Source: Flavivirga aquatica
Lineage (GTDB): Bacteria; Bacteroidota; Bacteroidia; Flavobacteriales; Flavobacteriaceae
Length of the DNA stretch: 64,000 bases
Assembly: GCF_001747085.1 (NCBI RefSeq)
Contig: NZ_MDJD01000043.1
Span: forward strand, 124,001-188,000
Direction: 5' to 3'
Part shown: in pieces, positions 6,848 through 13,976 of the stretch
Position numbering within the stretch: position 1 is the stretch's first letter
Layout: every line of letters begins with the position of its first letter
Program-made: the position numbers and the translations under genes
The notes under the pieces: generated by a model
The model's database searches: none
What the model was told of the DNA's origin: nothing
The model's input: the letters and a program-made list of their open reading frames with translations, nothing else

Positions 6848-7747
6848 TTAAAGACGTTTTTGGTTTAAATGTAAAACAAATGTTGCGTTAAATCCGAATA
6901 CAAAATTTCCATCTTTAAAATTGAAATTATTAGGTGTTTGGGTAATAAATATATCTTCTACCATATTTCTTGTATTTGTTAATTGAAATTGCAATAATAA
7001 ATCACTCATTTCCCAATTTACACCTAATACAAATGGCGAATAAGTGTCTTTCGATTTTATTGGATTAGCAACATAATAATACTCTGAAACTAGAGCAACA
7101 TGACCTCCTACTTTATACCTACCACCAATTCCAATAGCAAAATGATTATGAGGATCGTTATTAATAGCAGAGGTACCTCTATGTATAAATGTTGGAGATA
7201 CCTGTAGCGAGAAATTTGGAGTGAATTTACGGGCTATCAATATTTGACTTGTAAATGAGGTTTGTAATTTATTAGCATTTTGAAAGGCTTTATAGCGTTT
7301 GGTTTGGCGAGAAAGATTTTGAAAAAGAGTTACGCTAAATGGAGACGTATTACTATCTCTCCTTTGGTTTATGAGTTTGTACTTTAAAAAACCATCAAAA
7401 ACACCATCTAAGGTGGAGCCACCTGCTCCAAAAGTTAACCTGTCTGAAATACTATATTCTAGAGCTATTCTGGCAGTCCAAATATCTGTAACAAAACTTT
7501 GACTTGGGCGGTTTGGAATATTCCAAAATAAATTCATCGCTTTAATTTCTAAAACACCTTTTTTTCTGTTCTCAATAGAATGTCCTAGAGAAATACGAGT
7601 GCCTTTAAAGGTCGCTATTTCATATTGTGGTGTATTTGGATGTTCCTTTTCTAAAGTGTCAAGTAAGTCTTGTGCATTTAAAGAAGAGGATATAAAGCCA
7701 ATAACTGTAAACAGCCAAAAATATATATTACTTTTCATAAGGTTCAT
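6848..7747 (-). CDS. DUF5777 family outer-membrane beta-barrel protein, copy A
   Basis: 299 aa, signal peptide ending at SLNAQ (about residue 25). The mature start QDLLDTLE, then ATFKGTRISLGHSIENRKKGVLE, is shared almost word for word with the paralogue at 12666-13553. The remainder is alternating amphipathic strands typical of an outer-membrane barrel. The start overlaps the end of the upstream YceI gene by 20 bases. In this family the recurring partners are YceI-like and cytochrome proteins (from memory), so a role in an envelope redox or lipid process is possible but unproven. Confidence 0.85.
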   Translation of the reverse strand: MNLMKSNIYFWLFTVIGFISSSLNAQDLLDTLEKEHPNTPQYEIATFKGTRISLGHSIENRKKGVLEIKAMNLFWNIPNRPSQSFVTDIWTARIALEYSISDRLTFGAGGSTLDGVFDGFLKYKLINQRRDSNTSPFSVTLFQNLSRQTKRYKAFQNANKLQTSFTSQILIARKFTPNFSLQVSPTFIHRGTSAINNDPHNHFAIGIGGRYKVGGHVALVSEYYYVANPIKSKDTYSPFVLGVNWEMSDLLLQFQLTNTRNMVEDIFITQTPNNFNFKDGNFVFGFNATFVLHLNQKRL

Positions 7748-8273
7748 ATTCGAATCTAAATTTAACGGCTATCATTTTAGCTATATTTGGTGCTAAAAGG
7801 GGAGGTATCTTAATTTCAAAATCTTTAACACTAAGGTCAAAATTTCCTGCTATTGAGTATTTACCATTAATATTTTGGATTTCTGTTTTTACTTCTATTT
7901 CTTTTGAAATGTTTCTTATTACCACGATACCTTTTACAATTCTGGTTTGAACTTTCAGAGAAGGATCAAAATCTATAATATGACCTTTAAAAGTAGCTTT
8001 AGGGTGTAAATCAGACTCAATATAGCTTTCATTAAAATGCTCATGCATTAAAGATTTTTTAAACTCAAATGCATTCATTAACATGCTTATAGCGATTTCC
8101 TTTTTAGAAAGATCAATAATGCTTAACACTTGATTGTTTTTTGCTTCAATGTTTTCTACCGAAGTATAAGAAAAAAAGGAGACCTGACCTTGACGTGCAA
8201 TAATTTGGTTTGAAGCTTCATTGAAACTTATTAGTTTATTAAAAAGTAATAACAGAATAATAATTTTATTCAT
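7728..8273 (-). CDS. YceI family periplasmic protein, copy A
   Basis: 181 aa with a cleavable signal peptide. YceI proteins are lipocalin-like barrels that bind polyisoprenoid or other hydrophobic molecules in the periplasm. The segments AKNNQVLSIIDLSKKEIAIS, MHEHFNESYIESDLHPKATF and the closing VRNIS...LSVKDFEIKIP match the fold. It is closely related to the protein at 12119-12664, with the same length and the same cassette position. It lies 2 bases downstream of the OB-fold gene and overlaps the DUF5777 gene. Confidence 0.88.
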   Translation of the reverse strand: MNKIIILLLLFNKLISFNEASNQIIARQGQVSFFSYTSVENIEAKNNQVLSIIDLSKKEIAISMLMNAFEFKKSLMHEHFNESYIESDLHPKATFKGHIIDFDPSLKVQTRIVKGIVVIRNISKEIEVKTEIQNINGKYSIAGNFDLSVKDFEIKIPPLLAPNIAKMIAVKFRFEYEPYEK

Positions 8274-8275
8274 TT

Positions 8276-8701
8276 TTATTTATTAACCAATACACAATTT
8301 AATATGATAACATCTTTTAAAAATCCTTTGCATATACCTTTTAAGTTTATTTTATCACCTAATTCTAATTTGTCAAATTCTTTTTTATTAACATTTTGTA
8401 TATCACATATTATATTTGAATATGTATTATAGCCTTGTAATATTAGTGTATTTCGATTGTTTAAAAAATTAATCTTCTTTATAATCCCTTTTATTTCAAG
8501 AACTTTACCCTTATACATGGAATCTGATTTCTTCTCATCCTCTAAATAATGCTCTGAGATTTCTGCAGCACTTATTTTTAATACTGGAGAAACCTCTTTC
8601 ATATTAATGAACGATGATCTGGAAAGCAGGAAGTATGCATATAGACCTGTCATCAAAAATAAAGAAAATAGAATTATTATTAACTTGTTTTTTTTATTCA
8701 T
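8276..8701 (-). CDS. OB-fold (tRNA_anti-like) membrane-anchored protein, copy A
   Basis: 141 aa: one N-terminal membrane helix (about residues 8-28), then a small domain with YKGKVLEIKGIIKKI, GDKINLKGICKGFL and a closing DVIILNCVLVN. This is the pattern of the OB-fold tRNA_anti-like family of exported proteins. KGIC-G-L-DV and a second Cys near the end are shared with the paralogue at 11691-12107, so a disulphide is likely. It is the first gene of the minus-strand cassette. The function is unknown. Confidence 0.75.
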   Translation of the reverse strand: MNKKNKLIIILFSLFLMTGLYAYFLLSRSSFINMKEVSPVLKISAAEISEHYLEDEKKSDSMYKGKVLEIKGIIKKINFLNNRNTLILQGYNTYSNIICDIQNVNKKEFDKLELGDKINLKGICKGFLKDVIILNCVLVNK

Positions 8702-8940
8702 TTACAACGCAAAATAATAGATATTTATATAATAAGAAGTAATTATTGCTTTATATTTAATATGTATCCATAAAATGTATATTTAAAGATATTTATCCAT
8801 TATAAAAATCAAGTTCTTTAATTGTTTTTGTTAAATGGCAATAAAATATATTATTTTGCATACTTAGAATTAATAAAAAACAACTATTCACTTAATATTG
8901 ATGGTGAATTCTCTTATTTAATATAGGGGCGTTATAACCA

Positions 8941-10065
8941 ATGAGAAAAGATAAACTATACTTTTTAACATTTATATCTATATCGGTAATTTTCTTAATT
9001 ATTGCTTCTTTTAGCTTAAGATATTTTATAAAAGCTAGTGCTAGTCAATTACTAGAGATACAATTAGAGTCAAATAAAAGAGAGGCTAACGAAGTATCAA
9101 AACTAATACATTATCAAATAGCAGCAGGACTTAGCCAGACTAAAGTTTTAGAGCATGTCCAAAATACTATAGAGAATACCCATAAAGATGCCTCATTTAT
9201 TAGTGTGTTTAATTGGTCTGGAATTGAGATGGCTCATTCAGATATAACACAGGTTGGTGTAAAAATTAATTCTAATCAATCACTTCAAGAAGCTCTTAAC
9301 GAAGAGGATAATTCTAATGATATATATGATTTATTTACCGATCAAATAGAAAAAAGTATAGCCAATGGTAATATTGTAAAGACAGAAGTAACTTATATAT
9401 CTGCTGTAAAAGATTCTGATTTAATAGTTGCAGCTCATATAAATTTAGTTAAAATAGCAACTCAAATAAAAGATCTTAAAACAAGTTTTTATATCATATT
9501 CATGCTTATGGGAGGACTTATTATTCTTTCATCATTTTTTGCTGTTCGTATGATAGGTAGTTATTATGAAAAGCAACTAGAATTAAAAAACACAACCCTA
9601 GAGAGTGAACTTTTAAACCTTTCTAAATTAAATACAGATCTTTTAGCGTATCAGCAAAAAGTAATAGAAGATGTTAAAGAAGAAACTGAAGGAGTTTTAG
9701 AGACGTCTACAGAATTTAATCAGGAGTTTAATAAAACAAGAATTCTAACTTATGTTCGAAATGAACTGGTTTCCGTTCCTACAGATAAAATAGCATATAT
9801 CTATACTGAAAACACAATTACATATGTGGTTCGTTTCGATGAAAAAAAATCTACGACTAATATGAGTTTAGATGATCTGTTTACAAATCTGTCCCCTTCA
9901 TTATTCTTTAGAGCGAACAGACAATTTATAATTAGTATAACAGCAATCGCTAAAATAATTAAGTATGGAAATAGCCAACTTAAAATATTAATTCATGATG
10001 CTGATGTAGAAATTATTATTAGTAAAAATAAAGCTGCTGAATTTAGACAATGGCTCAATATGTAA
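8941..10065 (+). CDS. Membrane-bound LytTR transcriptional regulator with extracytoplasmic sensor
   Basis: 374 aa. There is a membrane helix at about 7-29, an extracytoplasmic Cache-like region (about 30-180, including SFISVFNWSGIEMAHSDITQ), a second helix (about 182-204), a coiled coil (about 212-245) and a C-terminal LytTR DNA-binding domain (about 262-374; KIAYIYTENTITYVV, FFRANRQFIIS). Sensor and DNA-binding domain are on one chain, so no separate kinase is needed. The gene lies between two mirror-image copies of the OB-fold/YceI/DUF5777 cassette and is divergent from copy A, which makes it the obvious candidate regulator of both. The signal is unknown. Confidence 0.86.
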   Translation: MRKDKLYFLTFISISVIFLIIASFSLRYFIKASASQLLEIQLESNKREANEVSKLIHYQIAAGLSQTKVLEHVQNTIENTHKDASFISVFNWSGIEMAHSDITQVGVKINSNQSLQEALNEEDNSNDIYDLFTDQIEKSIANGNIVKTEVTYISAVKDSDLIVAAHINLVKIATQIKDLKTSFYIIFMLMGGLIILSSFFAVRMIGSYYEKQLELKNTTLESELLNLSKLNTDLLAYQQKVIEDVKEETEGVLETSTEFNQEFNKTRILTYVRNELVSVPTDKIAYIYTENTITYVVRFDEKKSTTNMSLDDLFTNLSPSLFFRANRQFIISITAIAKIIKYGNSQLKILIHDADVEIIISKNKAAEFRQWLNM

Positions 10066-10420
10066 TAAATAAAATAGGCATATCGTTTCGTTTTTTTAGA
10101 CTTTAAAACACGATTGTATTTAATATGATATTTTATAGTTTAGTTGGAATTGTTTTTTATTTATAAAATTCTACTAAAGGCATACAAATTTTTTATTCTT
10201 CATTGTTAATACTTATTTGGATATTAATCAAGCTAAATATTATAGAAGAAAAAGAAGCTTCATTTTCGATATACGTTTTATATTAAGTCGAGGTAATAGC
10301 TCAAAATTTCAATGGTTTTTTTTCCCTTTTCACAGTCTTTTTTTCCCTTTCACATATATTGTTTTGTGTAGAACCTCTGTGTTTATGGTTATTTGCAGCA
10401 TAATCATTAAAAAAAACAAA
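10066..10420. other. Intergenic stretch before the COG4315 lipoprotein gene
   Basis: 355 bases between the LytTR gene and the lipoprotein gene. An open frame extends from 10217 into the lipoprotein gene, but its first 68 codons look non-coding (basic and aromatic runs ahead of a clear signal peptide). The main feature is the direct repeat at 10317-10354. Nothing else was recognised. Confidence 0.6.
10317..10354. promoter_or_regulatory. Direct repeat, possible LytTR-binding site
   Basis: TTTTTTTCCCTTTTCACA (10317-10334) is repeated as TTTTTTTCCCTTTCACA (10338-10354), 21 bases apart, two helical turns. LytTR proteins are known to bind tandem repeats about 21-22 bases apart, and a LytTR gene lies directly upstream. 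The motif does not match the classical LytTR consensus closely, so this is an inference from spacing and context. Confidence 0.4.
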
Positions 10421-11248
10421 ATGAGAAAATCAATTTTATTATTATTCATTTCAGCAGTATTATTTAACAGTTGTAGTAGTGACGATTCAAATCAAGAATC
10501 AGGAAATCCAACAGAAAATAACAATTCTATAAGGTTAGCAAATAATACAACATTAGGTAATATTTTAACAGATGAAAATGGGATGTCTCTTTATTTCTTT
10601 TCTAAAGATTCTAATGGGGAATCTGCTTGTGTTGATGGATGTGTTGCTGCATGGCCAATATTTTATTCTGAAAGTCTAACTTTAGATGAAGGTTTAAGTG
10701 CTTCAGATTTTGCTCAAATTACTAGAGCAGATGGTGAAAAGCAAACAACATATAAAGGATGGCCATTATATTATTTCGCAAATGATAATGCTGTTGGAGA
10801 TACCAATGGTGATAAATTTGGGAATAACTGGTTTGTTGCTAAGCCAGACTATTCACTTATGTATGTTCAGGCACAATTAGTAGGACGTGATCAAGACGGG
10901 AATGATAAGAATTTTAAAGGTGATTATACTCCTGGAAACGAGCTTACATTTTATATAACAGACGATAGAGGACGAACATTATATGCTTATAAGTTCGATG
11001 ATGAGGGTAAAAATAATTATACAGCACAAGATTTTTCTAATAATGCTATATGGCCTGTATTTCATGTAGATATAGATAAGCTTCCTAGTATTTTAAATCC
11101 AAATGATTTTGGAGTTATAAATGTTTTTGGAGAATCACAATTAACTTTTAAAGGTAGACCATTATATTATTTTGGTCAGGACGTTGAGAGAGGGGATAAT
11201 TATGGGATTAGTGTCCCAACTCCAGGTATTTGGCCAATTGTTAATTAA
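10421..11248 (+). CDS. COG4315 / secreted-repeat lipoprotein
   Basis: 275 aa from the ATG at 10421, which begins MRKSILLLFISAVLFNSCSS, a lipoprotein signal with lipobox Cys. An upstream in-frame start at 10217 would bury this signal and is rejected. The mature part holds repeats of the Lipoprotein_15 type: GMSLYFFSKDSNG with CVDGCVAAWP, then GWPLYYFANDN, GRTLYAYKFDDEG and GRPLYYFGQD. The YxFxxD units and the ACVDGC-AWP motif are characteristic of this secreted repeat. Family function is not established; members often sit near redox proteins, as here. A perfect terminator hairpin follows, 24 bases after the stop. Confidence 0.87.
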   Translation: MRKSILLLFISAVLFNSCSSDDSNQESGNPTENNNSIRLANNTTLGNILTDENGMSLYFFSKDSNGESACVDGCVAAWPIFYSESLTLDEGLSASDFAQITRADGEKQTTYKGWPLYYFANDNAVGDTNGDKFGNNWFVAKPDYSLMYVQAQLVGRDQDGNDKNFKGDYTPGNELTFYITDDRGRTLYAYKFDDEGKNNYTAQDFSNNAIWPVFHVDIDKLPSILNPNDFGVINVFGESQLTFKGRPLYYFGQDVERGDNYGISVPTPGIWPIVN

Positions 11249-11272
11249 TTATAGAATTTATCTTACCTCTAT

Positions 11273-11303
11273 AAAAAAGGGAAGTTTCTTACTTCCCTTT
11301 TTT
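11273..11303 (+). terminator. Terminator or attenuator just before the cytochrome gene
   Basis: Perfect 13-base stem AAAAAAGGGAAGT (11273-11285) with ACTTCCCTTTTTT (11291-11303) and a 5-base loop. It ends only 16 bases before the ATG of the cytochrome c gene (11320), so there is no room for a promoter in between. Expression of the four genes that follow must come by read-through or from a start upstream of the hairpin. Confidence 0.82.
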
Positions 11304-11319
11304 CTAAAAACTCTTAAAT

Positions 11320-11679
11320 ATGAACATAACAGTAAAAATTAAATACGCCCTATTGCTATTATGCATAGTTGTTACTTCTTGCGAATATAATGTAGAAGAA
11401 GAATTACAGACAGAAGGAACCGAAGAAGAAGTTGTGGAATTATGTAACCCAGATGTTTCTTTTGTTGCTAAGATTAAACCGATTATAGATAATAATTGTA
11501 TTAGATGTCATAATGGTAGTCAATTTCCAGATTTAAGAACATATACAGGTGTTAGTAATAGTGCCCAAAGAGTACAAATACGTGTTGTGAATAGAACCAT
11601 GCCTATAGGAGGAGCTTTAACTAACGATGAAATAGAATTGATTCGTTGTTGGGTAGAAAATGGCGCATTAAATAATTAA
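11320..11679 (+). CDS. Mono-haem cytochrome c-like lipoprotein
   Basis: 119 aa. Lipobox VVTSC (about residue 21), an acidic linker (EEELQTEGTEEEVVE), then CNPDVSFVAKIKPIIDNNCIRCHNG with a haem c attachment motif CIRCH. A candidate axial Met lies in RTMPIGG, followed by LTNDEIELIRCWVENG, the closing helix of planctomycete-type cytochrome c domains. It is probably an electron carrier on the periplasmic side of the inner or outer membrane. It begins the run cytochrome, OB-fold, YceI, DUF5777, hotdog protein, all on the plus strand with short gaps. Confidence 0.85.
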   Translation: MNITVKIKYALLLLCIVVTSCEYNVEEELQTEGTEEEVVELCNPDVSFVAKIKPIIDNNCIRCHNGSQFPDLRTYTGVSNSAQRVQIRVVNRTMPIGGALTNDEIELIRCWVENGALNN

Positions 11680-11690
11680 AACCTCTTTAT

Positions 11691-12107
11691 ATGTATAAAA
11701 GAATAATTTTAATAATAATTGTTGTCTTAACGATGGTATTCGTATATGTGTCTATATATAATAAGCCTCATATTAATATTGAAAAATCGACAGCAAATAT
11801 TTCAATAAAATCAAGTGATTTACTAAACGATTTTACTGTTGATGAAACAAAGGCAAATGAAAAATATCTAGATAAAATAATTCAAGTTGAAGGCATTATA
11901 TCGGAAATAAGTTTAGATAAAGAAGGTCGTAGGATAATTGCTTTGGAAGGTGAAGATTTATTAGGAAATGTTACATGCTATTTATCTAACGAAAAAAACA
12001 AAACTAATGAGCGGCTAAAAAGAGGACAATCTATAATAATAAAAGGGATCTGTACAGGTTACCTAATGGACGTTGTTCTAGTTAGGTGCATAATCATTAA
12101 CACTTAA
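11691..12107 (+). CDS. OB-fold (tRNA_anti-like) membrane-anchored protein, copy B
   Basis: 138 aa with an N-terminal membrane helix (about 4-24). The domain YLDKIIQVEGIISEI, GQSIIIKGICTGYLMDVVL and the closing CIIIN match copy A (8276-8701) in order and in the two cysteines. It lies 11 bases after the cytochrome gene and 11 before the YceI gene. It has the same cassette position as copy A, in mirror orientation. The function is unknown. Confidence 0.75.
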   Translation: MYKRIILIIIVVLTMVFVYVSIYNKPHINIEKSTANISIKSSDLLNDFTVDETKANEKYLDKIIQVEGIISEISLDKEGRRIIALEGEDLLGNVTCYLSNEKNKTNERLKRGQSIIIKGICTGYLMDVVLVRCIIINT

Positions 12108-12118
12108 AATTTTAAATT

Positions 12119-12664
12119 ATGAAATCATTAAAAATATTATTAACCTGTATGCTGTTATCAATGTTCTCTTATAGTCAAGGGAAATTCTTAACCAAACAAG
12201 GTTACACATCTTTCTTTTCAAGCTCTCCTGTAGAAGATATTACAGCAGATAACAATCAAGTTTTAAGTATTATCGATACAGCTTCAAGTAAAATTGCTAT
12301 TTCGATGTTAATGAAATCGTTCATGTTCGAGAAATCATTAATGCAAGAACATTTTAATGAAAATTATGTAGAGTCCGACATTTATCCTAAGGCTATTTTT
12401 AAAGGTGAAATTTTAAAATTTAGTGAGTTAGATGGAAACAATAAAAAAGCAACAATTGTTGGAGATATTACTATACATGGTGTTACTAAAAAAATAGAAA
12501 TACACAGTACGATTTCTAAAACAGAAAATAGTATCAAACTTTCAGGTAGTTTTTCGATAAGAGTAGCAGATTTTAATATTGAAATACCCAAAGTTGTTGT
12601 AAATAACATTTCTGAAACTATAAAAGTAACATTCGAACTTGATCATAAACCTTATAGAAAATAA
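12119..12664 (+). CDS. YceI family periplasmic protein, copy B
   Basis: 181 aa, signal peptide ending at SYSQG. ADNNQVLSIIDTASSKIAIS, MQEHFNENYVESDIYPKAIF and ITIHGVTKKIEI show the YceI lipocalin-like fold that binds hydrophobic ligands such as polyisoprenoids. It is the same length as copy A at 7728-8273 and very similar to it in the central third. It overlaps nothing, but is one base from the DUF5777 gene start (12666). Confidence 0.9.
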   Translation: MKSLKILLTCMLLSMFSYSQGKFLTKQGYTSFFSSSPVEDITADNNQVLSIIDTASSKIAISMLMKSFMFEKSLMQEHFNENYVESDIYPKAIFKGEILKFSELDGNNKKATIVGDITIHGVTKKIEIHSTISKTENSIKLSGSFSIRVADFNIEIPKVVVNNISETIKVTFELDHKPYRK

Positions 12665-12665
12665 T

Positions 12666-13553
12666 ATGAAAAAAATTATAACAGTTTTTGCTCTTCTGGC
12701 ATTTAGTTCACATATATTTTCTCAAGACCTTTTAGATGTTTTAGAGAATGAGGCTCCACAAACAAAAACATATACTACTGCAACTTTTAAAGGTACTAGA
12801 GTCCTTAATGGTCATTCAGTAGAGAATAGAAAAAAAGGCGTTTTAGAATTTATGATTTCTCATCGTTTTGGTAGAGTAAATCTGGGTATAGATGAGTTGT
12901 ATGGGCTAGATCAATCAAATATTAGGTTTGCCTTCGAGTATGGACTAACAGACGATATTATGATTGGACTTGGTAGAAGTAGTTTTGATAAAACTTACGA
13001 TGGATTTATAAAGTATAAACTACTAAAACAAAGTTCGGGAAATAATGCCTTTCCATTTACGGCTTCTTTATTTAGTAGTGTTGCCTATAGAACCTTAAAA
13101 GATTTTGATCCAGAGAATGAGCCTAGTACAAACGATAAATTAGCTTACGTCTCTCAAGTTTTACTTGCTAGAAAATTTAGTCCTTCATTTTCGTTACAAA
13201 TCACGCCTACGTTTATACATAAAAATTCTGTGAAAATAGACGAAGATCCGCATGATGTTTTTGCTGTTGGTTTTGGTAGTAGAATAAAGCTTAGTAAAAG
13301 AGTTTCATTGAATGCAGAATATTTTTATACAGCAAATAAGCCAAAGTCAATCGATGCATCGAATTCACTTGCATTAGGAATAGATATTGAAACAGGAGGA
13401 CATGTTTTTCAAATCGTTTTATCTAATTCTATAACAATGATCGAAAGAGGTTTTATTACAGAATCTACAGATAATTTCTTTGAAGGCGACATACATCTAG
13501 GATTTAATATATCGAGAGCATTTCAGTTTGGAAAACATAAAAAGAGAAAATAA
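12666..13553 (+). CDS. DUF5777 family outer-membrane beta-barrel protein, copy B
   Basis: 295 aa from 12666 (MKKIITVFALLAFSSHIFSQ, a clean signal peptide); the in-frame start at 12639 lies inside the YceI gene and is rejected. The mature protein begins QDLLDVLENEAPQT and holds ATFKGTRVLNGHSVENRKKG, the family signature shared with copy A, followed by amphipathic beta strands to the end. It probably inserts in the outer membrane. It is the third gene of cassette B. Confidence 0.86.
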   Translation: MKKIITVFALLAFSSHIFSQDLLDVLENEAPQTKTYTTATFKGTRVLNGHSVENRKKGVLEFMISHRFGRVNLGIDELYGLDQSNIRFAFEYGLTDDIMIGLGRSSFDKTYDGFIKYKLLKQSSGNNAFPFTASLFSSVAYRTLKDFDPENEPSTNDKLAYVSQVLLARKFSPSFSLQITPTFIHKNSVKIDEDPHDVFAVGFGSRIKLSKRVSLNAEYFYTANKPKSIDASNSLALGIDIETGGHVFQIVLSNSITMIERGFITESTDNFFEGDIHLGFNISRAFQFGKHKKRK

Positions 13554-13601
13554 TTAAACCAGTAATTATTTAAATTATTAACTAATAAATTTTATAAAAC
13601 A

Positions 13602-13976
13602 ATGTTTAGGCAAAAGTATAAAGTTCAAGGTGAAGATGTAGATGATTTTATGGTTATGGAAAACACAGCATATTTTAATTATTCAACCTCTATATTTAAT
13701 ATTTTTTTATCAGAGAAAGGATATTCTAAACGTAAAAGAGATGCTTTAAAAATCATTTTACAAGAATCAAAAGAATGTTTTATACGTAGAAAAGATTTAA
13801 TGTTTACTCAAGAATTTTTTGTAAACTTAGAACTTTTCGACATTGATAATGCAAAACAAAAATTGAATATTAGGAGTCGCTTTTTTAATGCAAATAATGA
13901 GTTGTGTGCTATAACTATTGGTGAATTATATTGGAACGATAGTACGTTGCTAAAAAACGTTATTGCTCGCTGTTGA
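13602..13976 (+). CDS. Hotdog-fold thioesterase-like protein
   Basis: 124 aa, cytoplasmic, no signal. The pattern (KYKVQGEDVDDFMVMENTAY at the start, then TSIFNIFLSEKGYS, a central LMFTQEFFVNLELFD and the late RSRFFNANNELCAITIGELYW) follows acyl-CoA or acyl-ACP thioesterase-like hotdog proteins. The usual active-site Asp and N/H are not clearly placed. It could act on acyl thioesters. It is the last gene of the plus-strand cassette, 48 bases after DUF5777 copy B, and is followed by a terminator. Family assignment is by pattern only. Confidence 0.55.
   Translation: MFRQKYKVQGEDVDDFMVMENTAYFNYSTSIFNIFLSEKGYSKRKRDALKIILQESKECFIRRKDLMFTQEFFVNLELFDIDNAKQKLNIRSRFFNANNELCAITIGELYWNDSTLLKNVIARC

Follow-up and report, generated by a model that had tools for sequence, protein, structure and literature searches.

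A conserved DUF5777, YceI and one-electron carrier gene set in Bacteroidota, seen from a LytTR-linked locus of Flavivirga aquatica: a possible envelope redox module

In Cyc2, which oxidises iron, a mono-haem cytochrome and a porin predicted to have 16 strands form one fused protein, and the MtrCAB and MtoAB systems, described in the same paper, bring together a barrel and c-type cytochromes in the outer membrane (PMC8406198). Ubiquinone-8 or related isoprenoids have been detected in association with YceI proteins, and BcnA partners a cytochrome b561 in countering lipid peroxyl radicals (PMC9113575). The locus described here belongs to Flavivirga aquatica and lies in a stretch of 64,000 nucleotides, referred to as the window (positions 124001-188000 of contig C43, NZ_MDJD01000043.1, of a 4.64-Mb genome); the closest named relatives at the locus are Aquimarina species. 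As the first-pass annotation had claimed, a triplet encoding an OB-fold protein, a YceI lipocalin and a DUF5777 protein stands in mirror image on both sides of a LytTR regulator, the ten genes at 6848-13976 being as described there apart from corrections (Table 1), and the membrane LytTR protein, the COG4315 repeat lipoprotein and the mono-haem cytochrome c lipoprotein reported between the cassettes are all present. The cytochrome gene is part of the plus-strand operon, whose conserved unit is cytochrome-OB-YceI-DUF5777. With about even confidence, this operon can be read as encoding a redox module of the envelope, in which a split counterpart of the Cyc2 cytochrome-porin is joined to a YceI lipocalin system.

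The genes that most constantly accompany DUF5777 are those for YceI and for a one-electron carrier. DUF5777 is present in 116 of 297 sampled Bacteroidota genomes, and neighbourhoods were compared in 43 similar loci together with loci sampled widely across the phylum, the genome samples coming from this one phylum and the neighbourhood counts treating related genomes as separate. Within four genes of DUF5777, YceI was found in 68 of 87 loci and a one-electron carrier in 76, in a set made up of a more neutral first 77 loci and ten more, some of which were chosen for long reading frames. In the more neutral 77, YceI occurs in 60, a cytochrome in 58 and a Rieske protein in nine, set against a background of CxxCH motifs in 21 of 784 unrelated neighbouring open reading frames; the OB protein is less constant (15/77). 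The check suggested earlier, whether the triplet recurs elsewhere with cytochromes and regulators, therefore gave a positive answer, LytTR systems also standing beside several of these loci. No paper naming DUF5777 was found in a literature search, and the gene set is widespread and apparently unstudied. There are also 15 loci with DUF5777 and a cytochrome in which YceI is lacking, some of them beside NrfD-type respiratory genes, and DUF5777 sometimes adjoins 4Fe-4S, NrfD and ethylbenzene-dehydrogenase-like haem genes. At five loci (L106, L124, L127, L155 and L096), cytochrome-DUF5777 pairs adjoin 4Fe-4S, NrfD-like and extra cytochrome c genes, which suggests a second respiratory context for the barrel.

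The carrier is usually a mono-haem protein with a CxxCH or CX4CH motif, a conserved Met-Pro and a C-terminal motif resembling WIxxGAxNN, and the cytochrome of the window has one CxxCH. In other genomes, a Rieske protein (PF00355, E to 3e-10) replaces the cytochrome, and a cupredoxin (PF00127) either accompanies or replaces it; two of these cassette cupredoxins (L105 7222-7797 and L120 8007-8594) have a type IX secretion sorting domain and are likely to be located at the cell surface. Furthermore, a haem domain is joined to the N-terminus of DUF5777 in a 411-residue protein of genome G030 and a 440-residue protein of genome G317, and a search of 114 genomes of the order concerned recovered full-length fusions in seven genomes, which represent four families. 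The six besides the query are 55-59% identical to it over the full length, each fusion has CX4CH and the Met, and four of the fusion loci also have a separate mono-haem lipoprotein next door. The exchange of cytochrome c for Rieske proteins or cupredoxins and the seven cytochrome-barrel fusions support redox coupling, and the natural fusions are the strongest evidence that carrier and barrel probably work together. Porins normally have their N-termini on the periplasmic side (PMC8406198), which would place the haem of the fusions on the inner side of the barrel.

The cassette resembles both Cyc2 and the LcoA-BcnA system and is a member of neither, because features that define each of them are lacking; assignment to Cyc2, to LcoA-BcnA or to Mtr was accordingly rejected. 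With Cyc2 it shares a mono-haem c domain associated with an outer-membrane barrel, fused N-terminally in the seven relatives mentioned above, whereas the cassette barrel has 12 modelled strands instead of 16, cytochrome and barrel are encoded by separate genes in the window, the haem motif of the DUF5777 fusions is CX4CH, YceI and OB partners are added, and the set was found here in Bacteroidota. On inspection, the Cyc2 motif AXPXFAR[Q/K][T/Y], which precedes CXXCH, was absent from the window cytochrome and from the fusions. The likeness to MtrCAB and MtoAB extends to a barrel and a c-type cytochrome in the outer membrane, but the cassette has one or few haems and 12 strands as opposed to decahaem cytochromes and 26 strands.

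In structure models of single chains (AlphaFold2), DUF5777 forms a 12-strand barrel, with a predicted local distance difference test score (pLDDT) of 87 and a predicted template modelling score (pTM) of 0.81, whose nearest Foldseek matches are FapF, NanC, OmpG and OmpF. Conserved charged residues alternate along the strands, for example D113, K117 and K119, R207 and K209, and D241 and E243, in the pattern expected for a charged lumen, and a conserved segment (F42, K43, R46, H51 and E54) precedes strand 1, all these residue numbers being one higher than when counted from Met. Two Chitinophagaceae (L059_10 and L060_4) encode single polypeptides of about 615 residues with DUF5777 in tandem duplicate, possibly forming a double or enlarged barrel. 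The placement among NanC, FapF, OmpG and OmpF would suit an ordinary small porin or lipid-export barrel whose redox linkage reflects nothing beyond co-regulation in respiratory or stress operons, an explanation that is nevertheless improbable, as co-regulation alone predicts neither a haem domain fused to the barrel in seven genomes nor the exchange of the carrier for unrelated redox proteins. The OB protein is modelled as a membrane helix followed by an OB fold (pLDDT 87), with 3f1z, of the same Pfam family, as its closest structure (TMt 0.70). This PF12869 lipoprotein of Klebsiella shares the OB fold, but the cassette protein is anchored by an N-terminal hydrophobic helix and in this genome is always encoded in DUF5777 cassettes. 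A CcmE-like haem chaperone, an idea derived from a shared OB fold, was considered and rejected, given that the Foldseek matches listed were 3f1z and aminoacyl-tRNA synthetases and not CcmE. A nucleic-acid role, hinted at by the name of PF12869, is unlikely, as the protein has a membrane helix at its N-terminus and is encoded with envelope proteins.

Based on these components, a working mechanism for the envelope redox module can be outlined. The 12-strand outer-membrane barrel would work with a small one-electron carrier, which at this locus would be the mono-haem cytochrome c lipoprotein. Docked against the barrel, the cytochrome would pass single electrons through or at it, in whichever direction. 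A periplasmic YceI lipocalin may bring or take a lipophilic redox partner, either an isoprenoid quinone or an oxidised lipid, and the OB-fold protein, anchored in the inner membrane, may hold or supply YceI on the inner side. The membrane LytTR protein would sense an envelope signal and turn the operon on through the repeat at 10319-10354.

The closest competitor to this mechanism is an analogue of the LcoA-BcnA system, in which YceI scavenges oxidised lipids or lipid peroxyl radicals from the membranes, the carrier regenerates YceI, the envelope is thereby detoxified, and DUF5777 exports or admits lipid. In both, there is a genetic tie between a YceI lipocalin and a redox protein, bcnA itself being linked or fused to cytochrome b561 and its mutant having a lipid-peroxidation phenotype (PMC9113575), and dedicated regulators of stress type (LytTR and extracytoplasmic function (ECF) sigma factors) adjoin the cassettes. 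However, no cytochrome b561 was found among the cassette genes, where the carrier is a mono-haem c protein, a Rieske protein or a cupredoxin; an outer-membrane barrel and an OB-fold protein are added; the carrier is fused to the barrel and not to YceI; and the 15 loci without YceI, with their occasional respiratory neighbours, retain barrel and cytochrome. Such detoxification is therefore regarded as unlikely, though less so than the other alternatives considered in this article.

Several points weigh against the envelope redox module as well, the evidence for which is comparative throughout. A single haem cannot span the outer membrane unaided, so that a full trans-membrane wire needs something more, and the minus-type cassettes, together with 11 of the 87 loci, are without a recognised carrier nearby. 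The acidic stretch that follows the lipid-anchored Cys of the cytochrome lies further out than the export signal of PMC5080379, so that a canonical surface-export signal fits partly only and the surface exposure of the cytochrome is uncertain. In addition, the link between LytTR and the operon is drawn from position and repeat geometry, and the repeat is to be regarded as a candidate operator.

The kinship asserted for all three families in the two cassettes is confirmed by direct comparison, the copies sharing 42% identity in DUF5777 (E 8e-74), 43% in YceI (3e-50) and 28% in the OB protein (3e-22), far beyond chance, and within the YceI genes the DNA itself contains an inverted repeat of 225 nt with 71% complementarity. 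Both DUF5777 copies pass the curated Pfam cut-off. The genome as a whole has four DUF5777 loci, three PF12869 genes and eight YceI genes; a YceI gene lies near each of the four DUF5777 genes, and all three PF12869 genes sit in DUF5777 cassettes. The order is OB-DUF5777-cytochrome-YceI in the copy on C45 and YceI-DUF5777 in the copy on C48. Two large leucine-rich-repeat proteins are encoded directly 3' of the latter (L018 12310-17450).

The tree of DUF5777 (67 sequences, quick search, moderate support of 87-93 for most key groups and 100 for the wider minus group) places the plus copies with those of Tenacibaculum (L030) and genome G134 (L099), and the minus copies with the C48 copy and genome G088 (L153), a long branch dividing the two, so that the minus type is nearer to the third copy on C48 than to the plus copy. 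The tree indicates that the plus and minus types are separate old paralogues, which would have split before Aquimarina arose. Beside a LytTR gene orthologous to that of the window, L030 and L099 (46% and 43% LytTR identity) have the plus type alone and L153 (52%) the minus type alone, whereas both cassettes flank one LytTR in 10 of 10 named Aquimarina loci; for this reason, the Aquimarina mirror is best explained as two older LytTR-linked cassette types joined around a single regulator. A recent inverted duplication without functional meaning could account for the shared order and the 28-43% identity across the three pairs, but it was rejected as highly improbable on the DUF5777 tree, with its separate clades, relatives in other genera and long separating branch, and on the retention of both types throughout the named Aquimarina loci. 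The proposed mirror-image duplication thus holds as anatomy and not as a fresh event; the genome has four DUF5777 loci, not two. The proposal of one regulated envelope module in two copies is upheld in part by the triplet being kept elsewhere with cytochromes and regulators, and is weakened by the old split, by the types standing alone beside orthologous regulators, by the minus type being without the cytochrome and COG4315 genes, and by the repeat described next, which in this genome precedes the plus operon only.

The LytTR protein has transmembrane segments at residues 8-26 and 184-202, which enclose a periplasmic part, and a LytTR domain at 275-372; the 10 Aquimarina loci all have an orthologue, and three further loci have one with 43-52% identity. 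In four Aquimarina loci (L026-L029), three tandem genes of about 230-240 residues with a collagen-like repeat stretch separate the LytTR gene from the COG4315 gene. Contig C48 carries another membrane LytTR paralogue, with 57% identity to that of the window (L216 12978-14075; C48:98983-100074), about 21 kb from the C48 YceI-DUF5777 pair and near genes resembling conjugation genes.

Upstream of the COG4315 gene, TTTTTCCYTTTYA occurs twice with a period of 20-21 bp and is conserved in 13 of the 13 loci compared. The repeat at 10319-10354 scores 39.3, as against 4.6 for the next distinct site in the 64 kb, and its pattern has one match in 4.64 Mb and none for the reversed control, a count that expresses rarity and not independence, as the pattern was written from the sites themselves. 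Published LytTR sites are repeats 11-13 bp apart and about 10 bp upstream of the promoter (PMC6193735), and the repeat, just 5' of the promoter-like TTTG/TTATTTG pair, has this geometry of direct repeats about two helical turns apart. The membrane regulators of Bacteroides in that study likewise have a LytTR domain behind transmembrane segments and direct repeats just upstream of the promoter; here, in contrast, there are two transmembrane segments and a periplasmic part of about 150 residues, the repeat sequence differs, and the repeat precedes the target operon, none having been found upstream of the regulator gene. A matrix whose training was limited to sites 5' of the COG4315 gene also places the repeat ahead of the minus OB gene in nine of 10 other Aquimarina loci and in L153, and gave no site before the minus cassette in the window (best score -17.5) or in L025, nor any at C45 or C48. 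As the operator-like repeat precedes only the plus operon, the evidence from this genome does not support control of the minus cassette through that repeat. A sigma-70 promoter scan yielded no more matches than shuffled sequences. Hairpins similar to that between the COG4315 and cytochrome genes are found in L020-L024 and L027, and may act as a partial terminator or attenuator that lowers downstream gene expression.

Regulators that adjoin the cassettes include LytTR at this locus, a Reg_prop kinase with LytTR in L059, and ECF sigma factors elsewhere. The recurrence of regulators with extracytoplasmic parts could mean that information on the redox state of the envelope or on a lipid passes from YceI and the carrier to the neighbouring membrane LytTR or ECF regulator, the barrel being the target; such a sensing unit is quite improbable, since the type of regulator varies while the cassette is constant, and many cassettes are without a nearby regulator.

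Table 1. Features of the LytTR-linked DUF5777 locus, in positions of the window
Feature	Position	Strand	Evidence
DUF5777 barrel, minus-type cassette	6848..7747	-	PF19089 E=1.7e-70; in minus-type clade with C48 copy
YceI lipocalin, minus-type cassette	7728..8273	-	PF04264 E=1.5e-9
OB-fold protein, N-terminal hydrophobic helix, minus-type cassette	8276..8701	-	PF12869 E=7.7e-21; hydropathy
One-component membrane LytTR regulator	8941..10065	+	PF04397 E=1.5e-17; hydropathy
Candidate LytTR operator, direct repeat TTTTTCCCTTTTCA / TTTTTCCCTTTCACA, period about 20-21 bp	10319..10354	+	Conserved in 13/13 upstream regions
Candidate Bacteroidota promoter, TTTG 10363-10366 and TTATTTG 10389-10395	10363..10395	+	Read from sequence; block aligned across Aquimarina
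Lipoprotein_15/COG4315 repeat lipoprotein, plus operon gene 1	10421..11248	+	PF03640 E=9.6e-37, three repeats; lipobox LFNSC
Hairpin between COG4315 and cytochrome genes	11274..11302	+	Region folds at -17.8 kcal/mol
Mono-haem cytochrome c lipoprotein, CIRCH, conserved Met in TMPIGG	11320..11679	+	Family common to most cassettes; weak PF13442 match
OB-fold protein, N-terminal hydrophobic helix, plus-type cassette	11691..12107	+	PF12869 E=1e-30; AlphaFold2 pLDDT 87; closest solved fold 3f1z
YceI lipocalin, plus-type cassette	12119..12664	+	PF04264 E=6.8e-16; solved relative 5ixg YceI
DUF5777 12-strand outer-membrane barrel, plus-type cassette	12666..13553	+	PF19089 E=4.3e-97; AlphaFold2 pLDDT 87, pTM 0.81; Foldseek porin-like
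Thioesterase-like protein after plus cassette	13602..13976	+	PF13279 match just below curated cut-off

Among the remaining features, the COG4315 gene most likely starts at the ATG at 10421, which gives a lipobox, rather than at the TTG at 10217. Downstream of the plus cassette, the small thioesterase-like gene is present in 10 Aquimarina loci and absent from those of Tenacibaculum and G134. An NCBIfam search returned no informative names over threshold, and literature searches on COG4315/PF03640 and on YceI with Bacteroidota cytochromes gave nothing useful.

A broader and more tentative proposal, doubtful as it stands, is that DUF5777 with a mono-haem cytochrome, Rieske protein or cupredoxin may serve as a minimal conduit for electrons at the outer membrane. 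Such conduits would make up a new class that is widespread in Bacteroidota and does not depend on Cyc2 or Mtr, with menaquinone or lipid bound to YceI providing the coupling to the cell interior. The exchange of carriers and the natural fusions make the reading of the cassette as a redox device directly testable. If it is true, a large share of an abundant environmental phylum would have a redox device in the outer membrane that has gone unrecognised, and work on the function of YceI lipocalins would gain a system that includes both a barrel and a defined carrier of electrons.

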